Of a stretch of 37,070 nt of DNA, positions 2,410-30,735 are shown in pieces. Where the stretch lies: positions 1-37,070 of the IMG/VR virus record IMGVR_UViG_3300017744_000044. One strand, 5' to 3'. The first letter of the stretch is position 1. Each line of letters starts with the position of its first letter. The notes beneath the pieces were generated by a model, which saw only the letters and a program-made list of their open reading frames with translations, searched no databases and was not told the origin of the DNA. Origin of the DNA: a virus. The position numbers and the translations under genes were made by a program.

Positions 2410-4247
2410 CCGAAGAAAGAATAGGCCGCTCTATCGTGGTAACTATCAATATCAGTTCTCAAATCAGTAGTTGTTAAACTAGCCGCTGAATTACTTGTTG
2501 AATTATTACCTGAATTGTTTGTAGAGTTGTCAATAATAACAACACCATCTCCTTGACCTTTTTTACCAAATCTATTTACAGTTTCAGTTTTATAGGTTGT
2601 CTCTGTTGTATCACCTTGTACTGTTTCTATTGTACTCTTTGAAATGTTATCGCCCTCATTGGTAACTGAACCTGTATCTGTACCGGCTGCCATCACTTCA
2701 TTATATACTCTACTAAACGCCTCGCCTGGACTTTCACCACCTGGTAACATTGCACCAGCAGCCGCAAGACCACCTTTTGCCAATGCTTTCATCATTGTAC
2801 CTAATTTGAAAATATTATTTTTGAGACCTGCAAAATCAAAAGTAAATAGACCTTTAAACCAGTTCCATGCCGACATTACAGGACCGTCTTCGCCTAAAAA
2901 GAATTCTTTTAGTGAGAATGGTTTATCGGGGTCACCAAAATTAAATATGTCTTTCAAGAAGTTAATTGCTAAGTCAAGTGGTAATGATACTACACTAAAG
3001 AAGAAATCAGCTGCACTACCAACTACGCCTGTTAGACCTGACCATATTCTTTCTGTGTCTAGTGTGAATATACCCATTACAAAGTCAACAAGACCACCAA
3101 TAATGCCACTAAAACTTTCTGTGATACTGACACCAAAATCTGCAATGTATGTACCTAAATTTTCTAATCCAAGATATGATAATGCCATGCCAATTAAATC
3201 TGTTATCAATCGTACAAAACTACCAATGAAACCATCTACAATTGCAACAACGGATTCTCTGATACCATCTACAATAGAACCACTTTCACCATAACCATCC
3301 ATAAATCCTTTAACACCATCAAATACTCCTAATATTAATGTCAATGGTAAGAATAATTTACCAACAGTTCTACCAATTGCTTTGATTGGCGCAATGATTT
3401 TACTTAATGCACCACCAGCTTTACCTGCACCTGCCGGTCCTGAAGCACCGCCACCAAATAGTCCCATTATTGCGTTCTTAAACGGAGCAAATACGGCACC
3501 AACTGATTTGGCTGCCTCATCTATTGATGAAGTAATCTTCATAATACCTGGACTACTAAAGAAACTCTTAACTGGTTTTATTAAATTATCATCTAATAGA
3601 AGTTTTATACCAGCAAATGGAGCTTTTGGCAAGTGTTTTGCCTTGAAGTCATCAAATTTTGATAGAATAGGTCCTGATATAGAAGTCTTGAAACCATTTG
3701 TCAAGTTTGTACCAAATGCTTTTGTAGCAATTTTAAAATCATCTACAAGTTTGGCACCAAAACCTAATGTAGTAATAGTACCAATGCCTTTAGCAAAAGT
3801 AGCCATTCCTTTGATAGATTTTAATTGTTGTGGTAATCTTAATATATCTTCTATATTCATTGCCTTTGCAAAAGCGGCTAAGGCAAATATACCTGCAAGA
3901 GCAGGCATTTTGAAATCACCAGTCATCTCTGATTTACTAGGCATAGAGACAGTAGATTGACTAGCTACATCTCTTTTTTCTTTTCTTAATTCAGCAGCTT
4001 GACTTCGTTCTCTTGCTAATTGGTCTTTGTCAAACTGAAACATCTGTCGTAAGGTGTCCATGAAACCTTGCGTGTTTCTTTCGTTCTCTTTACCAATCGA
4101 CCTTAAATCTTCTAATATAGGAATAGAACCATTATCATTGGCTGCTACAGCACCTGCACCACCAGTTATCGCACTACCAACAGCCATTTGTGCTGATTGA
4201 ATACTTGCGACTAAACTACCTCTTGTTTTACCTGTGTTCTCTGCCAT
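2406..4247 (-). CDS. Tail tape-measure protein (gp29-like)
   Basis: The product is 613 aa, near the length of T4 gp29 (590 aa). Residues about 40-100 are a charged helical region. Hydrophobic segments follow near 115-130, and a long Gly/Ala-rich hydrophobic part spans about 285-430. The C-terminus has Thr/Asn/Ser-rich low complexity (NSTNNSGNNSTSNS). This layout is typical of tape-measure proteins, which set tail length and may enter the host envelope. The gene lies downstream of the chaperone pair as expected. The start overlaps the iscU stop as TAATG. Specific identity with gp29 is inferred from size and position. Confidence 0.6.
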   Translation of the reverse strand: MAENTGKTRGSLVASIQSAQMAVGSAITGGAGAVAANDNGSIPILEDLRSIGKENERNTQGFMDTLRQMFQFDKDQLARERSQAAELRKEKRDVASQSTVSMPSKSEMTGDFKMPALAGIFALAAFAKAMNIEDILRLPQQLKSIKGMATFAKGIGTITTLGFGAKLVDDFKIATKAFGTNLTNGFKTSISGPILSKFDDFKAKHLPKAPFAGIKLLLDDNLIKPVKSFFSSPGIMKITSSIDEAAKSVGAVFAPFKNAIMGLFGGGASGPAGAGKAGGALSKIIAPIKAIGRTVGKLFLPLTLILGVFDGVKGFMDGYGESGSIVDGIRESVVAIVDGFIGSFVRLITDLIGMALSYLGLENLGTYIADFGVSITESFSGIIGGLVDFVMGIFTLDTERIWSGLTGVVGSAADFFFSVVSLPLDLAINFLKDIFNFGDPDKPFSLKEFFLGEDGPVMSAWNWFKGLFTFDFAGLKNNIFKLGTMMKALAKGGLAAAGAMLPGGESPGEAFSRVYNEVMAAGTDTGSVTNEGDNISKSTIETVQGDTTETTYKTETVNRFGKKGQGDGVVIIDNSTNNSGNNSTSNSAASLTTTDLRTDIDSYHDRAAYSFFG

Positions 4248-4624
4248 TACGCTACCTTACTCTTATAATTTGCGATTGCTGATTTAATTGCGTCTTCAGC
4301 TAATACACTACAATGTATTTTTACTGGCGGAAGTGCCAGTTCTTCTACAATGTCTAAATTCTTTATTTCTTGTGCCTGTGTTAAAGACTTACCTTTTACC
4401 ATTTCTGTAACCAAACTGCTACTTGCAATAGCACTACCACAACCGTATGTCTTAAACTTAGCGTCTGTTATAATATCATCTTTGACTTCAATTTGTAATT
4501 TCATTACATCACCACATGCTGGCGCACCGACCATACCTGTGCCGACATCTACTCTTTTACCATCCATACTACCCACATTTCGTGGATTTTCATAATGGTC
4601 TAATACTTTATCTGAATATGCCAT
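4247..4624 (-). CDS. iscU: Iron-sulfur cluster scaffold protein IscU
   Basis: This 125-aa protein is full-length (E. coli IscU is 128 aa) and closely follows bacterial IscU. It has the N-terminal YSDKVLDHYENPRNVG, ligand Cys37 in GAPACGD with Asp39, Cys62 in YGCGSAIASSS, and Cys105 in KIHCS after the HscA-binding LPPVK motif (98-102). IscU receives sulfur from IscS, builds 2Fe-2S clusters and passes them on. No iscS, hscA or ferredoxin gene is visible here, so host partners would be needed. The gene is joined by TAATG overlaps to the membrane protein before it and the tape measure after it, so it is probably expressed late. Confidence 0.96.
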   Translation of the reverse strand: MAYSDKVLDHYENPRNVGSMDGKRVDVGTGMVGAPACGDVMKLQIEVKDDIITDAKFKTYGCGSAIASSSLVTEMVKGKSLTQAQEIKNLDIVEELALPPVKIHCSVLAEDAIKSAIANYKSKVA

Positions 4625-8660: not shown

Positions 8661-9155
8661 TTATAAGTTTTGTAAAACATTTTCTGCATTACTCACTTCG
8701 AAAGGGTCAGTTGTACAATTGTCTTTGAATCCAGGCTCTTCATATAATTTTTCAACAACGCCATCATTAATGATAGCGGCGTATCTCCACGACCTGTATC
8801 CAAATCCCTTGTCGTCTTTCTCGACAAGCATTCCCATACCTCTAGTAAACTTACCAGAGCCATCAGGAATTAGTTTCACTTTCTCTATGCCTAGGTCTTT
8901 GCCCCAAGCATTCATTACAAAAGCGTCATTAACTGATATACAATAAACTTCATCAATACCTTTATTTAAAAAGTTGTTGTAGTTTTTCTCGTAATCAGGT
9001 AATTGGTGTTCAGAGCAAGTTGGTGTAAATGCACCAGGTAGTGAAAACAATATCACTCTCTTGCCCTTAAAAAAATCATTTGTATCTTTCTCGACCCACT
9101 CGCCAAGAGTTCTACATTTAAATTTAACATTTGGTACTGTATTATTTACTCTCAT
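8661..9155 (-). CDS. Peroxiredoxin (Prx5-type)
   Basis: This is a 164-aa thioredoxin-fold peroxidase. The active-site signature PGAFTPTCSEHQLP holds the peroxidatic Cys47 with Thr44. The family features YEKNYNNFLNKGIDEVYCISVNDAFVMNAWGK and the YRSWRYAAIINDG strand follow. It would reduce hydrogen peroxide or organic peroxides during infection; a reductant could be host glutathione or the phage glutaredoxin (22837-23103). The ATG at 9155 was chosen because AAGGA stands 5 nt before it. Two in-frame upstream starts are spaced worse. It shares a transcript with gp32. Confidence 0.93.
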   Translation of the reverse strand: MRVNNTVPNVKFKCRTLGEWVEKDTNDFFKGKRVILFSLPGAFTPTCSEHQLPDYEKNYNNFLNKGIDEVYCISVNDAFVMNAWGKDLGIEKVKLIPDGSGKFTRGMGMLVEKDDKGFGYRSWRYAAIINDGVVEKLYEEPGFKDNCTTDPFEVSNAENVLQNL

Positions 9156-9234
9156 CATATTCCTTATTCTTCTTTGCCCATTCACTAGCACTTTCACCTT
9201 TTGGTAGTGAGGACTTAATTAGTTTCTCTTTCAT
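9142..9234 (-). CDS. Possible 30-aa leader protein before peroxiredoxin
   Basis: The short ORF encodes MKEKLIKSSLPKGESASEWA and a charged KKNKEYDESK end. Its last 14 nt overlap the peroxiredoxin start, a layout that suggests translational coupling. It is the first ORF after the strong promoter at 9294-9322. No clear ribosome site precedes its ATG. The codon content looks like coding sequence of this phage, but at 30 codons this remains uncertain. Confidence 0.4.
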   Translation of the reverse strand: MKEKLIKSSLPKGESASEWAKKNKEYDESK

Positions 9235-12324: not shown

Positions 12325-12931
12325 CTAATAAATGCCTCGTACATATTGGAAAATGGTCTTTCATATGCTTTGCCATTTGTCCTGTTATCATTCTCGTTTC
12401 TTCTTGTGTATCGTCTTTGTTTCTTAAATTACATACTCTCGCAAATGCATATAGAGTTCCAGACCAGTACCACTCTGTCATCATGTTTTGTGGTAAGACC
12501 ATTCTTGCCATCTCTGGTGCTATGTCACTCTTAAGCATATCGGTATATAACTCCTTTGCCTGTTTGACAAATTCTGTAATATCATATTCGACTTCTTCAT
12601 CACCTGAGCCTTGTTTTTTATTCTCGGCACGGTTTCGCCACATAAATGGCACATAGAATTCTGGTGTATCATCAACATATCTACGACTAACTTCATTCCA
12701 CACCAAACCAACTTGGTGTTTTACCAATTGTCTTGCAACAAAGATTGGTGCTTTAATTAGAAATTGCATAGAGGCATGACCAAATGGTGACCAATGATTA
12801 TGCTCTGCTAGATACTTAATTAGTTTTTCGTCTTTCTCTTCAAAGATTTCTTTCTTCTTACTGAATGACACTCTAGCTGCATTTACAACTGTAAGGTCAT
12901 TACCCATTTTGTCTATTAATGATATGTTCAT
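12311..12931 (-). CDS. thyX: Flavin-dependent thymidylate synthase ThyX
   Basis: This 206-aa enzyme makes dTMP from dUMP using FAD, NADPH and methylene-tetrahydrofolate. Typical parts are VVNAARVSFSKKK, HNHWSPFGHASMQFLIKAPIFVARQ and the signature region at 67-85, which reads RQLVKHQVGLVWNEVSRRY. This is a variant of the RHRX7S motif, with KHQ and one extra residue. PQNMMTEWYWSGTL and CNLRN follow. The ATG at 12931 overlaps the gp33 stop as ATGA and has AGGAAAG upstream. An in-frame upstream extension was rejected. No thyA is visible. Confidence 0.95.
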   Translation of the reverse strand: MNISLIDKMGNDLTVVNAARVSFSKKKEIFEEKDEKLIKYLAEHNHWSPFGHASMQFLIKAPIFVARQLVKHQVGLVWNEVSRRYVDDTPEFYVPFMWRNRAENKKQGSGDEEVEYDITEFVKQAKELYTDMLKSDIAPEMARMVLPQNMMTEWYWSGTLYAFARVCNLRNKDDTQEETRMITGQMAKHMKDHFPICTRHLLDEEV

Positions 12932-13146
12932 ACTGGTAACTTTCCTGTCGCTTTGACTTTTAGCATGTTTGCTTTCATACATTCTTGTTCAATCTTTTCT
13001 TTCAGAGCCTTGGTCAACATTCTACCTGCCTGCTCTGGTTCCACTTCATTTTCACCACAGTAATCCAGTATGGCGTCCATATAAGAAATTGGTTTTTTCT
13101 TTATGTATAACTTTTCTATTATTAGGGAAAATTCTTTTGAGTTCAT
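12928..13146 (-). CDS. 33: Late-transcription coactivator gp33-like
   Basis: This 72-aa protein has FSLIIEKLYIKKKPISYMDAILDYC, then PEQAGRMLTKALKEKIEQEC and the C-terminal KVKATGKLPV. The helix pattern and the Tyr/Met-rich middle match gp33 of T4-like phages, the coactivator that links the late sigma factor, RNA polymerase and the sliding clamp. It is the first gene of the thyX-gp59 operon. The ATG at 13146 lies 7 nt after the -10 box at 13154-13159 and has no ribosome site, so the mRNA may be leaderless. An in-frame start at 13218 would lie upstream of the promoter and was rejected. Confidence 0.75.
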   Translation of the reverse strand: MNSKEFSLIIEKLYIKKKPISYMDAILDYCGENEVEPEQAGRMLTKALKEKIEQECMKANMLKVKATGKLPV

Positions 13147-13182: not shown

Positions 13183-13184
13183 GC

Positions 13185-13216
13185 GTGGATTGTTTCTGTT
13201 TCGAAGTACAATCCAC
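13185..13216 (-). repeat. Hairpin at the end of the tmRNA coding piece
   Basis: Nine-base arms (GTGGATTGT at 13216-13208 on the minus strand and its complement at 13193-13185) enclose a 14-nt loop. No T run follows, so it more likely marks an RNA helix or processing site than a simple terminator. Confidence 0.7.
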
Positions 13217-13230
13217 AAAACTCAAAGCAG

Positions 13231-13266
13231 TTATTAAGCTGCTAATGCAAAGTTATTATCGTTTGC
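13231..13266 (-). other. tmRNA proteolysis-tag reading frame
   Basis: The resume codon GCA (13266-13264) opens a ten-codon frame ANDNNFALAA closed by two TAA stops. The E. coli tag is ANDENYALAA. The bases before the resume codon (TAAAC) keep the A at -4, which is important for setting the frame in E. coli. The ALAA end is the usual ClpXP degradation signal. Confidence 0.93.
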
Positions 13267-13356
13267 GTTTAATTAGCATATAAGGTTGCCACCTATTAAT
13301 CTCTTACAAATTTCTCAACATCTGTCGAATCCTATATCAGCCCCATCATAAACACA

Positions 13357-13488
13357 CTATTTACAAAGGTCTTCATACTTTGTGGCATGTACTCTATGTT
13401 TAGACAAATCTCTACCAAGATAACCTGGTACATGTCCTTCTCTCTTTTTCAAGAAATTATTAAATACATTTTTAATCCACTTTAGCAT
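13357..13488 (-). CDS. 43-aa protein encoded inside the tmRNA intervening segment
   Basis: The ORF encodes a basic 43-aa protein: an amphipathic start MLKWIKNVFNNFLKKREG, then HVPGYLGRDLSKHRVHATK and YEDLCK. A good ribosome site (GAAGGA, 6 nt from the ATG) lies between the tmRNA acceptor end (13514) and the ATG at 13488. The stop is 12 nt before the tmRNA 5' end (13344). The whole gene therefore lies in the part that must be cut out to make two-piece tmRNA. I do not recognise the protein. Coding signals are good for its size. Confidence 0.7.
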   Translation of the reverse strand: MLKWIKNVFNNFLKKREGHVPGYLGRDLSKHRVHATKYEDLCK

Positions 13489-13513
13489 TTACTTTCCTTC
13501 TCTAATGTGTTTA

Positions 13514-13581
13514 TGGTGGAGCTGGAGGGAATTGCACCCTCGTCCAGTCTGTCTACCATATTTGTCGTCAACGACTAATTC
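13514..13581 (-). ncRNA. ssrA: tmRNA acceptor piece (3' part of permuted ssrA)
   Basis: The minus strand ends with CAGCTCCACCA at 13514, which pairs with the GGGGCTG start of the coding piece. Before it is a T arm with stem GAGGG/CCCTC and loop TGCAATT; the usual second T of the loop is G here. Further upstream is a GTCG-TTGA-CGAC hairpin. A 6-nt match (ACAAAT at 13565-13560 with ATTTGT at 13311-13306) could help join the two pieces. The 5' boundary is set at the end of the preceding gene and is approximate. Confidence 0.88.
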
Positions 13582-13956
13582 TTATGTTCTTGAACCTGGT
13601 TTCTTTAAACCGAAACTTCTATACATCATACAAGTTTCATGTCCACTTGGTGATGTGATAGCTGACACAGATTCCGTCTCATCTATATTTAAATAATATG
13701 TCACAAAGTAAACTGGTTCTCCGTCAGGAGATGAACCAGCTTTACCAACTGACATGCTGTCTAATACGAAATCATTATCTTTGAGGTATCTCATTACCTC
13801 TTCACTCTCGCCACATACCACAGGTATGTGTTGCCATTTGAAATCGTAAACTTTTCCACTAAATTCTTGTCCTTCAGCATTTGCCAAATTAATTGACATG
13901 GAGAAAGACATAGTAGAAAAGAGTATTGCTAATAACGAAATGTAAAACCTTTTCAT
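13582..13956 (-). CDS. Secreted protein of unknown function
   Basis: This 124-aa protein has a clear signal peptide (MKRFYISLLAILFSTMSFSM, with a likely cut near ANA-EG at about 27). The mature part has two cysteines (VVCGES and HETCMM) that could form a disulfide, plus EPVYFVTYYLNIDETE. The ribosome site AGGAG precedes the ATG. It ends one base before the estimated tmRNA acceptor piece, so both may share a transcript. No family is recognised. Confidence 0.75.
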   Translation of the reverse strand: MKRFYISLLAILFSTMSFSMSINLANAEGQEFSGKVYDFKWQHIPVVCGESEEVMRYLKDNDFVLDSMSVGKAGSSPDGEPVYFVTYYLNIDETESVSAITSPSGHETCMMYRSFGLKKPGSRT

Positions 13957-15266: not shown

Positions 15267-16466
15267 TTACCATTCCTTGGATTCTTTACTGTCAGACCAG
15301 TAATTATATCCAAATTGTTTATCAAAATCGTACCAATTTTGTGTAGTAAAAGTTTGGTACCATTTATTGTCTGACCTATCGAATAATGTGAGGTTATGCA
15401 TAACATTTTTTAAATCATCAAACCATTCATTATCTTTTAGAAATTGTGAAGACTTTTCTTTAGTCTCACGCCAAAATTGTGTATCGTGGTTACTACCACC
15501 ATGATAGATGTAATTTATAAACATCTCAATGTACTGTGCTTTTCTTATCAGATTACGATTACACTCTTCTAATGTCCATTTTGAATTGTTAGTAATCCAG
15601 TTTACAGTATATGTCATTAAATCATCATAAAAATAACCAGACATTGCCTCTAATGGTTCAAAGAATAATGCTCTGTTACCATTCTTGACAATTCTTCTTG
15701 TCATAAAATTCTTAGCATAGTAATTTTTAAATTCAAAAGTCCTATGGTCTTCAGCTAATTTAGACAAAGGCATTTTTAATAACTCTGCCATATTAACTAA
15801 CGCTTCTTCTTTTGATGTTATCTTGTCGTTAAACAAGTAACCATTACCTGTTCTTGTAGTTAATGGTATTGTAAACATCCATCCATCTTTGGTTGCTGTG
15901 TGACCAGTATATCCAAAATTATTTGGTGTAGGTTTTACATGGGCAATAGCAGAATTAACTGGTATGTGCGCCGTTGTATAATCCTCGTATGTTTCTGGCC
16001 ATCCTCTACAATCAACAACCATAGAATATTTATGGTTTCCGTCATCTGTGCTTACTTCGGCATGACTTTCATGTTCGACAATATCTTTAACTGTGGCATT
16101 TATGATAGTAAAACGGTCACCATGTACCTGTTTTAACCTACTAAAAGTCCATTCAGCCAAATAGAAATTGTTAAAATGTATTCCGTAAATAGGTGTGGGA
16201 AATCTACTGTATATATCATGTGGTCTCCAATCTTTGTATTTTACACCATACTTAACAGTAGCGTCTAAAAAATCACCATCTTTCCATAAACTAAATTTAG
16301 CCGATTTATATAATGCTTGTGGTATTGAAGCAGTTGTACTTTCACCTATACCTAAAATTGGTATACTAGGGTCATATATAACACTCACCTCTTCGTGTGT
16401 GTCACTTAATAATCTACATACTGAAATAACTCCGGCTGTACCAGAGCCTATCACACATACTGCCAT
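15267..16466 (-). CDS. Flavin-dependent halogenase (tryptophan-halogenase family)
   Basis: The product is 399 aa, shorter than bacterial tryptophan halogenases (about 520-540 aa). The N-terminal FAD-binding motif is VIGSGTAG (5-12). The likely catalytic Lys76 lies in KYGVKYKDW. The DGWMFTIPL motif (194-202) stands for WxWxIP, with Phe198 in place of the second Trp. EPLEAMSGY (270-278) holds the conserved Glu. The enzyme would use FADH2, oxygen and halide to halogenate a substrate. Cyanophages carry related enzymes, one of which is reported to iodinate. The substrate here is unknown. AAGGGA precedes the ATG. Confidence 0.85.
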   Translation of the reverse strand: MAVCVIGSGTAGVISVCRLLSDTHEEVSVIYDPSIPILGIGESTTASIPQALYKSAKFSLWKDGDFLDATVKYGVKYKDWRPHDIYSRFPTPIYGIHFNNFYLAEWTFSRLKQVHGDRFTIINATVKDIVEHESHAEVSTDDGNHKYSMVVDCRGWPETYEDYTTAHIPVNSAIAHVKPTPNNFGYTGHTATKDGWMFTIPLTTRTGNGYLFNDKITSKEEALVNMAELLKMPLSKLAEDHRTFEFKNYYAKNFMTRRIVKNGNRALFFEPLEAMSGYFYDDLMTYTVNWITNNSKWTLEECNRNLIRKAQYIEMFINYIYHGGSNHDTQFWRETKEKSSQFLKDNEWFDDLKNVMHNLTLFDRSDNKWYQTFTTQNWYDFDKQFGYNYWSDSKESKEW

Positions 16467-29741: not shown

Positions 29742-30553
29742 AACAATTGTTCCTGTAATGTTTTTTGTGCAACACCAGTTCTTATCTCTTCGATTGTAAA
29801 CTGATTATCTGCAATAAACTTTAACCACTCTTCGACAGTCTTTCTACCAGGTCTAAAAGGTTTCTCTACAAATTTTATATCTCTACTTGCAATAGGACTA
29901 ACTATGTTATTCTTGTGTGCAATAACTGGTACTTGATTTAATACTGCGTCAACACCAGCTAAACTCATATTTGTAATCACACAATGACAGTTTTTTAATT
30001 GGTCTCTAATGTCAGTATTCCACCATTGATTTCCAGGTCTTGGTTTATTTCTTACAATAATTTTTCTTGTTGTGTGTAATTTTAATTCTTCTTTGACTTG
30101 GTTTATCCACTCTTCTTGTGATGTACCATTGATATGGTGTGTAACCGTAGGACTTGAAGGACATAACATAATATGTTTAGTCTCTCCAGTATTCCAACCT
30201 TTAAAGTTTGCGTCAATACCTTGGTGTCTCAACTTATCTAATCTTGCTGGTGTATTTACTCTACCTAATTGTGTATGTAAATTACCTTTACATATTCTAA
30301 AATATGTTTTATCATAATCATGTATTTTAGGTTCTGGATATCTTGTAATCTGTTCAGTTAAATAACCAACATCTACATACCACCACTCTAAACCCCATTC
30401 CATACATTGTCTTATCTGTGCAATATTTTTTCCTGCTAAACCCCAAAAGAAATGAACATCTTTACCTGTATCTTGCCAACCCTCTTTTATAGCAGGCCAT
30501 ATTTGGTGTGATAAACATTTATCCCATGCTATTTCGTGGCAAGTAATACTCAT
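29738..30553 (-). CDS. Capsule/GT-B-like protein, paralogue 1
   Basis: This 271-aa protein has HIMLCPSSPTVTHHI, KIIVRNKPRPG, LKNCHCVITNMSLAGVDAVL and NQVPVIAHKNNIVSPIAS in the C-terminal half. The order is a loop, an IVR(N/D/E)K strand, then a short helix NCH-VI..S..G.D.V..G/Q.PV. This resembles the nucleotide-sugar half of capsule-synthesis (KpsS/Capsule_synth-like) GT-B proteins. Two relatives, 32082-32960 and 35317-36222, share the same pattern. Confidence 0.75.
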   Translation of the reverse strand: MSITCHEIAWDKCLSHQIWPAIKEGWQDTGKDVHFFWGLAGKNIAQIRQCMEWGLEWWYVDVGYLTEQITRYPEPKIHDYDKTYFRICKGNLHTQLGRVNTPARLDKLRHQGIDANFKGWNTGETKHIMLCPSSPTVTHHINGTSQEEWINQVKEELKLHTTRKIIVRNKPRPGNQWWNTDIRDQLKNCHCVITNMSLAGVDAVLNQVPVIAHKNNIVSPIASRDIKFVEKPFRPGRKTVEEWLKFIADNQFTIEEIRTGVAQKTLQEQLL

Positions 30554-30735
30554 GCTTGTTCTCCGTTTAGTAGTTTACACTCATAGTTTATTGAAGACCA
30601 ACTACCGTCTTGTGGTAGTTCTTCGTGCATTTGTTGTGACTTCACACATAACGCCTGGCTAGTGTGTAATCCTACATTTTGATGAACACATTTTCCATCA
30701 CTCATACATATTGTTAATAATAAAACCCAAAACAT
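30550..30735 (-). CDS. Small Cys-containing secreted protein
   Basis: This 61-aa protein begins MFWVLLLTICMSDGKCVHQN, a short hydrophobic start followed by a polar part with Cys at 10, 16, 30 and 53. It could be a small periplasmic or membrane-anchored protein with disulfides. It overlaps both neighbours slightly (ATGA and TAATG junctions), supporting that it is real. Confidence 0.6.
   Translation of the reverse strand: MFWVLLLTICMSDGKCVHQNVGLHTSQALCVKSQQMHEELPQDGSWSSINYECKLLNGEQA

Follow-up and report, generated by a model that had tools for sequence, protein, structure and literature searches.

A permuted tmRNA gene of a pelagimyophage-like virus with a candidate small protein gene in its intervening sequence

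Can the precursor of a phage transfer-messenger RNA (tmRNA) also serve as the messenger of a small protein? The question is raised by the IMG/VR virus record IMGVR_UViG_3300017744_000044, whose positions 1 to 37,070 were analyzed as one stretch of DNA (the window). An earlier, sequence-only reading of the window had proposed that the phage encodes a circularly permuted, two-piece tmRNA, but it missed a putative protein-coding open reading frame (ORF) within the intervening sequence (IVS) of this gene, which is the unusual part of the locus. The comparisons described here, in which labels of the form Lxxx denote the other sequence records, suggest that the window quite probably carries a working phage tmRNA of the alphaproteobacterial permuted type, the precursor of which would also be translated into a small protein.

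To define the tmRNA gene, the window was compared with two Rfam models using Infernal. The merged permuted-tmRNA model RF04321 (tmRNA_permuted) matched over its full length at positions 13576-13234 of the minus strand with a score of 92.8 bits against a cut-off of 47 (E 7e-17). With 46.2 bits at positions 13613-13184 (E 9e-12), the older alphaproteobacterial model RF01849 (alpha_tmRNA) remained slightly below its cut-off, which is 50 bits. The elements which the sequence-only reading had named were all found on the minus strand at the coordinates given for them, including TTCGAC, the tag frame, the sequence CAGCTCC-A-CCA (13524-13514) and the T arm GAGGG-TGCAATT-CCCTC (13541-13525). Along the gene, the CCA at 13514 is followed by the IVS (13513-13345) and then by GGGGCTG from 13344, which means that the 3′ piece is encoded before the 5′ piece, as had been proposed. 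If the RF01849 model is followed, the 3′ piece starts at about 13613. The acceptor stem GGGGCTG/CAGCTCC pairs at seven of seven positions, including G3-U70, which is the pair marking alanine tRNAs, and both A73 and the CCA are encoded. The core of the precursor (13553-13334) had a fold z of -6.8 relative to its own shuffled sequences. The motifs, the Rfam match and this fold together place the RNA gene far beyond chance. The assignment of the gene as a permuted, two-piece-type tmRNA, probably of the alphaproteobacterial class, belonging to a pelagimyophage-like virus, is supported by these matches and by the gene comparisons with Pelagibacter phage Mosig.

The tag frame encodes ANDNNFALAA, which has a small hydrophobic C-terminus and is followed by a double stop. 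IMG/VR has 99 stretches with the same tag core, and ANDNNFALAA had no match in the cellular genomes of the GTDB collection. Of 289 alphaproteobacterial genomes, 15 yielded host tags with a similar pattern for ANDNEMALAA; this control was made on a collection other than the one used for the ANDNNFALAA search. Tags starting with ANDN are usual in alphaproteobacteria. The sequence-only reading had also pointed to TGC in place of TTC in the T loop. This triplet is indeed present, but its status as an anomaly was rejected, because TGC is found in 123 of the 146 parsed phage examples and the consensus loop of RF01849 is GGCgGUA.

The IVS of the window is closed by a stem formed by its ends (Table 1), and the nested ORF occupies the loop of this stem–loop. 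The stem is conserved: when the same register was followed through 83 different IVSs of phages, pairing was seen at 675 of 830 positions, compared to a mean of 499 and a maximum of 533 for shuffled sequences, and the pair types varied. As a cellular control, 51 alphaproteobacterial IVSs were parsed; their median length was about 28 nt, and only three were longer than 51 nt. No clear nested ORF was seen by eye in the alphaproteobacterial sequences inspected, mainly those above 50 nt, to which no automatic ORF call was applied. The IVSs of phages vary widely in length and content, and many long ones are free of ORFs. In L150 and L173 the IVSs of 142 and 138 nt have no ORF but share sequence with each other, and they could be structured RNAs, while the 104-nt IVS of L138 contains a CxxC...CxxxC-like frame throughout, with no obvious start codon. 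Two IVSs proposed by the parser were discarded: in L191, a tRNA array accompanied by a standard tmRNA had been misread as a tRNA-like IVS, and the 333-nt IVS of L487 was in conflict with a 185-nt Infernal span.

Homologues of the nested ORF were found at the same IVS position in diverged tmRNAs. The first one of this ORF type (M-x-x-W-I-K-N ... Y-L) was seen in L055, and a pattern scan, together with the isolates of phage Melnitz (L319; MZ577097), gave further ones. The homologous sequences are MFNWIKNYFDKWVKKEEERQIRYLSGKGK in L055 and L038, with near copies in L061, L067 and L077, MIKWIKNSYNNWLAKKEADIPKYLKGK in L221 and L222, and MFKWLSKTRLVVITRDYFRERNRKADAKIPKYLSG... in Melnitz, with counterparts in Melnitz relatives; in Melnitz and its relatives the frame runs on into the mature 5′ piece. 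The residues M1, W4, K15, Y23 and L24 are invariant in these sequences. The patterns used revealed no free-standing copies, and L493, which was picked up by a pattern for this ORF type, is not a tmRNA. The ORF-containing IVSs of L038 and L055 are identical, while their T arms differ (TGCGATT versus GGCAGTT loop), which suggests recombination at the IVS edge.

Because the ORF of the window is itself known in one sequence only, selection on it was judged from these distant homologues. The proportions of synonymous differences (pS) between the window and L055 or L221 were 0.63 and 1.16, respectively, and those of nonsynonymous differences (pN) were 0.29 and 0.23, all based on very few sites; pS exceeded pN in every comparison among the three, each with few sites. 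In the Melnitz subfamily of the same ORF type, pS was 0.22 and pN was 0.066.

The IVS site is occupied by at least four ORF types in other phages. Each of the 15 phage records with a nested ORF that were compared with Rfam (L062/L328, L329, L332, L339, L347, L350, L390, L401, L223, L208, L171, L156, L055, L061 and L221) passed the RF04321 cut-off, as did Melnitz and L023. Of 80 viral relatives, 23 have the best-sampled type, B (MEVIWHILLTVC..., 62 aa), in the nested position; in about nine, according to a simple rule, it lies directly upstream of a tmRNA, as does Melnitz gp85, and in 48 it lies elsewhere. With the last four codons left out, the nested copies gave pooled pS and pN values of 0.46 and 0.12 and a ratio of nonsynonymous to synonymous substitution rates (dN/dS) of 0.18, with 20, 12 and 41 variable sites at the three codon positions, and by these measures type B is under purifying selection as a protein. 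All nested copies end with GS(M/V)SL, since the 3′ strand of the IVS stem is made up of their last codons, TCA(A/G)TGTCTTTA. The free copies that were read closely (L343-L345, L364 and L375) follow the 3′ end of a tRNA, and in L342-L345 and L375 another tRNA starts right after the type-B stop, which makes type B a small protein gene of phage tRNA arrays. The nested state requires three changes on a DNA tree, and it is therefore probable that type B entered or left this site repeatedly. In the window, a 61-aa protein at 30550-30735 of the minus strand (MFWVLLLTICMSDGKC...) resembles type B by eye; a Pfam search with this protein gave only a sub-threshold match to DUF1482.

Among the remaining types, the type C ORF (MKYKIVVK..., 50 aa) is nested both in L223, which has an alpha-like tmRNA with a TGC loop, and in L208, which is beta-like by RF01850 and has a TTC loop, while the IVSs of L171, L156 and L390 contain short membrane-like ORFs. 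Nested ORFs were present in 9 of about 91 contigs holding both tmRNA pieces, a tag-based set which was not chosen for ORFs. A second count, 25 of 130, is too high, as the type-B protein had been used to retrieve some of the sequences counted.

The following picture of the locus could be proposed. Host tRNA-processing enzymes would cut the precursor at the CCA and immediately 5′ of GGGGCTG, as expected from the family, with RNase P and 3′ processing acting as in bacteria, and the resulting two-piece tmRNA would tag and release stalled ribosomes. Either the precursor or the IVS, once excised, could serve as the template for the small protein, the ORF of which has its own Shine-Dalgarno (SD) site. 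The IVS would then be more than a spacer, namely a site filled by different phages with different small ORFs. The sequences themselves establish the parts of the tmRNA, the conservation of the stem, the homologous ORFs and, in the ORF families with the most copies, selection at the protein level. We infer that the nested ORF is translated, that its product has a function, and that tmRNA maturation may be affected.

Several observations weigh against a messenger role of the precursor. The ORF of the window is represented by a single sequence, as the IVSs of L023, L050 and L080 are identical to it, and this short ORF has no convincing match in Pfam or PHROG. In some closely related phages the IVS is short and lacks an ORF, as in Pelagibacter phage Mosig (MT647606), or in L400 and L402 as compared to L401 and L405, so that the nested ORF is dispensable. 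The tmRNAs of L400 and L402, without the ORF, and of L401 and L405, with it, are nearly the same, and the IVS thus behaves like an exchangeable cassette. Additionally, the translation start may be hidden in structure, because in the predicted fold of the window precursor the SD is mostly paired (0.21 unpaired) and the ATG almost completely so (0.02 unpaired); this fold, like the others mentioned here, was calculated from a single sequence. Taken to its end, such reasoning would make the locus an ordinary phage permuted tmRNA, whose IVS has drifted to a greater length and contains an accidental, untranslated ORF. The wide variation of phage IVSs, the ORF-less long ones among them, the loss of the ORF in close relatives and the missing family match are all consistent with this explanation. 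It does not account, however, for the finding that diverged tmRNAs have homologous ORFs at one and the same position, for the SD in front of the ATG, or for the excess of synonymous differences in those types that are sufficiently sampled, and an SD-led ORF of at least 43 codons appeared in only 4 of 5000 shuffled window IVSs. Hence, we consider an accidental ORF unlikely.

A tmRNA gene that is decayed, or which serves as a decoy and does not rescue ribosomes, appears even less probable, and we regard it as highly improbable. In such a case selection would act on the nested protein, or on an inhibitor of the host tmRNA resembling the tRNA-like domain (TLD), as discussed for mycobacteriophage DS6A. 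The RF01849 score just under the cut-off could be taken in its favor, and both a TLD-only phage tmRNA and tmRNA inhibition by such a molecule have been reported (PMC4131195, PMC11915505). However, the gene of the window retains an intact 7-bp acceptor with G3-U70, A73, the CCA, the tag frame and the double stop, and about 100 viral stretches have retained this 10-aa tag, which a decoy would not need. The remaining explanation refines the proposed double role of the precursor rather than opposing it: the folded IVS stem would hide the SD, ribosomes on the ORF would open the stem and delay maturation, and protein and tmRNA would thus compete. In the predicted folds, the IVS stem takes up the SD AAGGA completely in type B, L156 and L171 (0.00 unpaired), the codons of the common ending of nested type-B copies are the 3′ strand of that stem, and the Melnitz ORF extends into the mature 5′ piece. 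The effect is not uniform, as the SD is mostly open in L055, L061 and L221, and the argument depends on single-sequence folds. Since the SD is paired in some members and open in others, competition between translation and maturation is possible for some of them, but overall the switch seems less likely than not. Only tentatively could it be suggested that marine phages use the spacer of permuted tmRNAs as a cassette site, in which the synthesis of small proteins and tmRNA maturation compete through an IVS stem that hides the SD.

The preferred reading, in which a working tmRNA precursor also serves as an mRNA, would offer a handle on what a phage pairs with ribosome rescue and on whether the two outputs are linked. 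Type B shows how a gene from phage tRNA arrays can end up in a tmRNA spacer. Such ORFs are missed by annotation: that of Melnitz is not annotated as a coding sequence (CDS), and ARAGORN did not detect the tmRNA of the window at all.

The surroundings of the gene point to the kind of virus. The tmRNA gene is part of a run of genes, and the gp33-like coactivator, with its probable start at the ATG at 13146, adjoins the tmRNA downstream in the window, Mosig and Melnitz alike. In the window the next gene is ThyX, which is 77% identical to ThyX of Mosig, and in Mosig an SsrA is annotated at the same locus as the window tmRNA, which is why the window virus is regarded as a pelagimyophage-like relative of T4. 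SAR11 is its likely host, judging from the gene comparisons. The 124-aa upstream neighbor had no family match in PHROG and Pfam searches, and sigma-70 promoters near the tmRNA gene were not above the level of shuffled sequences. Elsewhere on the minus strand, the window encodes a peroxiredoxin-like protein with about 60% identity to alphaproteobacterial ones (8661-9197), a phage-borne NifU/IscU-type iron-sulfur scaffold protein (4247-4624; PF01592, 2.7e-51), and a 399-aa protein (15267-16466) whose N-terminus appears to resemble a flavin-dependent tryptophan halogenase.

Table 1. Features of the tmRNA locus and its neighbors in the window
Feature	Positions	Strand	Basis
Late-transcription coactivator (T4 gp33-like), downstream neighbor	12928..13146	-	PF16805 8e-21, phrog_254 7e-22
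tmRNA 5′ piece (encoded second): GGGGCTG acceptor 5′ strand, TTCGAC, tag region, terminal hairpin	13184..13344	-	RF04321 to 13234, RF01849 to 13184
Tag frame GCAAACGATAATAACTTTGCATTAGCAGCT (ANDNNFALAA), then TAATAA	13231..13266	-	Sequence
IVS, 169 nt, absent from mature tmRNA	13345..13513	-	Between CCA and GGGGCTG; insert in RF04321
IVS stem 3′ strand TAGTGTGTTTA, with the stop TAG of the nested ORF	13349..13359	-	Sequence, fold, stem comparison
Nested ORF, 43 codons and TAG, MLKWIKNVFNNFLKKREGHVPGYLGRDLSKHRVHATKYEDLCK	13357..13488	-	Homologues at same IVS position in L055/L061, L221, Melnitz
Shine-Dalgarno AAGGA (in GAAGGAAAG) of the nested ORF	13495..13499	-	Sequence
IVS stem 5′ strand TAAACACATTA	13503..13513	-	Pairs 11/11 (one G-U) with 13359-13349
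tmRNA 3′ piece (encoded first): T arm, acceptor 3′ strand CAGCTCC, A73, CCA	13514..13576	-	RF04321 start, sequence
124-aa protein, signal-like N-terminus, upstream neighbor	13582..13956	-	Syntenic CDS in Mosig

Marine T4-like phages with a two-piece tmRNA are already known, namely Mosig and, from a published study (PMC9004378), Melnitz. Among phage tmRNAs, that study reported 53 of the two-piece type, of which 50 came from marine or aquatic phages; within the Melnitz cluster, 17 of 47 contigs had permuted tmRNAs. Both phages share with the window the gene form, probably the class, the gp33-like downstream neighbor and the phage group, and their RF01849 scores were higher (67.6 bits for Mosig and 106.7 bits for Melnitz). 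They differ from it in that Mosig has a short IVS without a comparable ORF, while Melnitz, which has a homologous one, carries a glutamine riboswitch (RF01739) just downstream of the tmRNA; a Rfam scan of the window gave no match to this riboswitch. The aptamer is located directly downstream of Melnitz-type tmRNAs at 4607-4655 in L319 and 3131-3179 in L401. The alphaproteobacterial permuted tmRNAs (RF01849, RF04321) are similar to that of the window in gene order, acceptor, CCA, ANDN-type tag and a T loop other than TTC, but their IVSs are mostly below 50 nt, with no clear ORF in the inspected set. No description of ORFs in a tmRNA IVS was found in the literature searched, which covered few subscription papers. 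The nearest published cases are homing endonuclease genes borne by introns in tmRNA genes and a tRNA gene in one IVS (PMC11915505). In the intron-form tmRNA genes a protein gene likewise lies in a part that is removed from the mature RNA, whereas the window type is a permuted-gene spacer, with no intron, and its proteins of 27-62 aa have no endonuclease match. The permuted tmRNA of GCA-2688965 likewise has a second gene inside the IVS, but this is an RNA gene, tRNA-Ala, in one nominally archaeal metagenome-assembled genome, while the ORFs in phage IVSs are protein ORFs and recurrent. The locus thus belongs to a known kind of RNA gene, and its apparently new part is a candidate gene for a small conserved protein in the discarded IVS, where related phages have different small genes.
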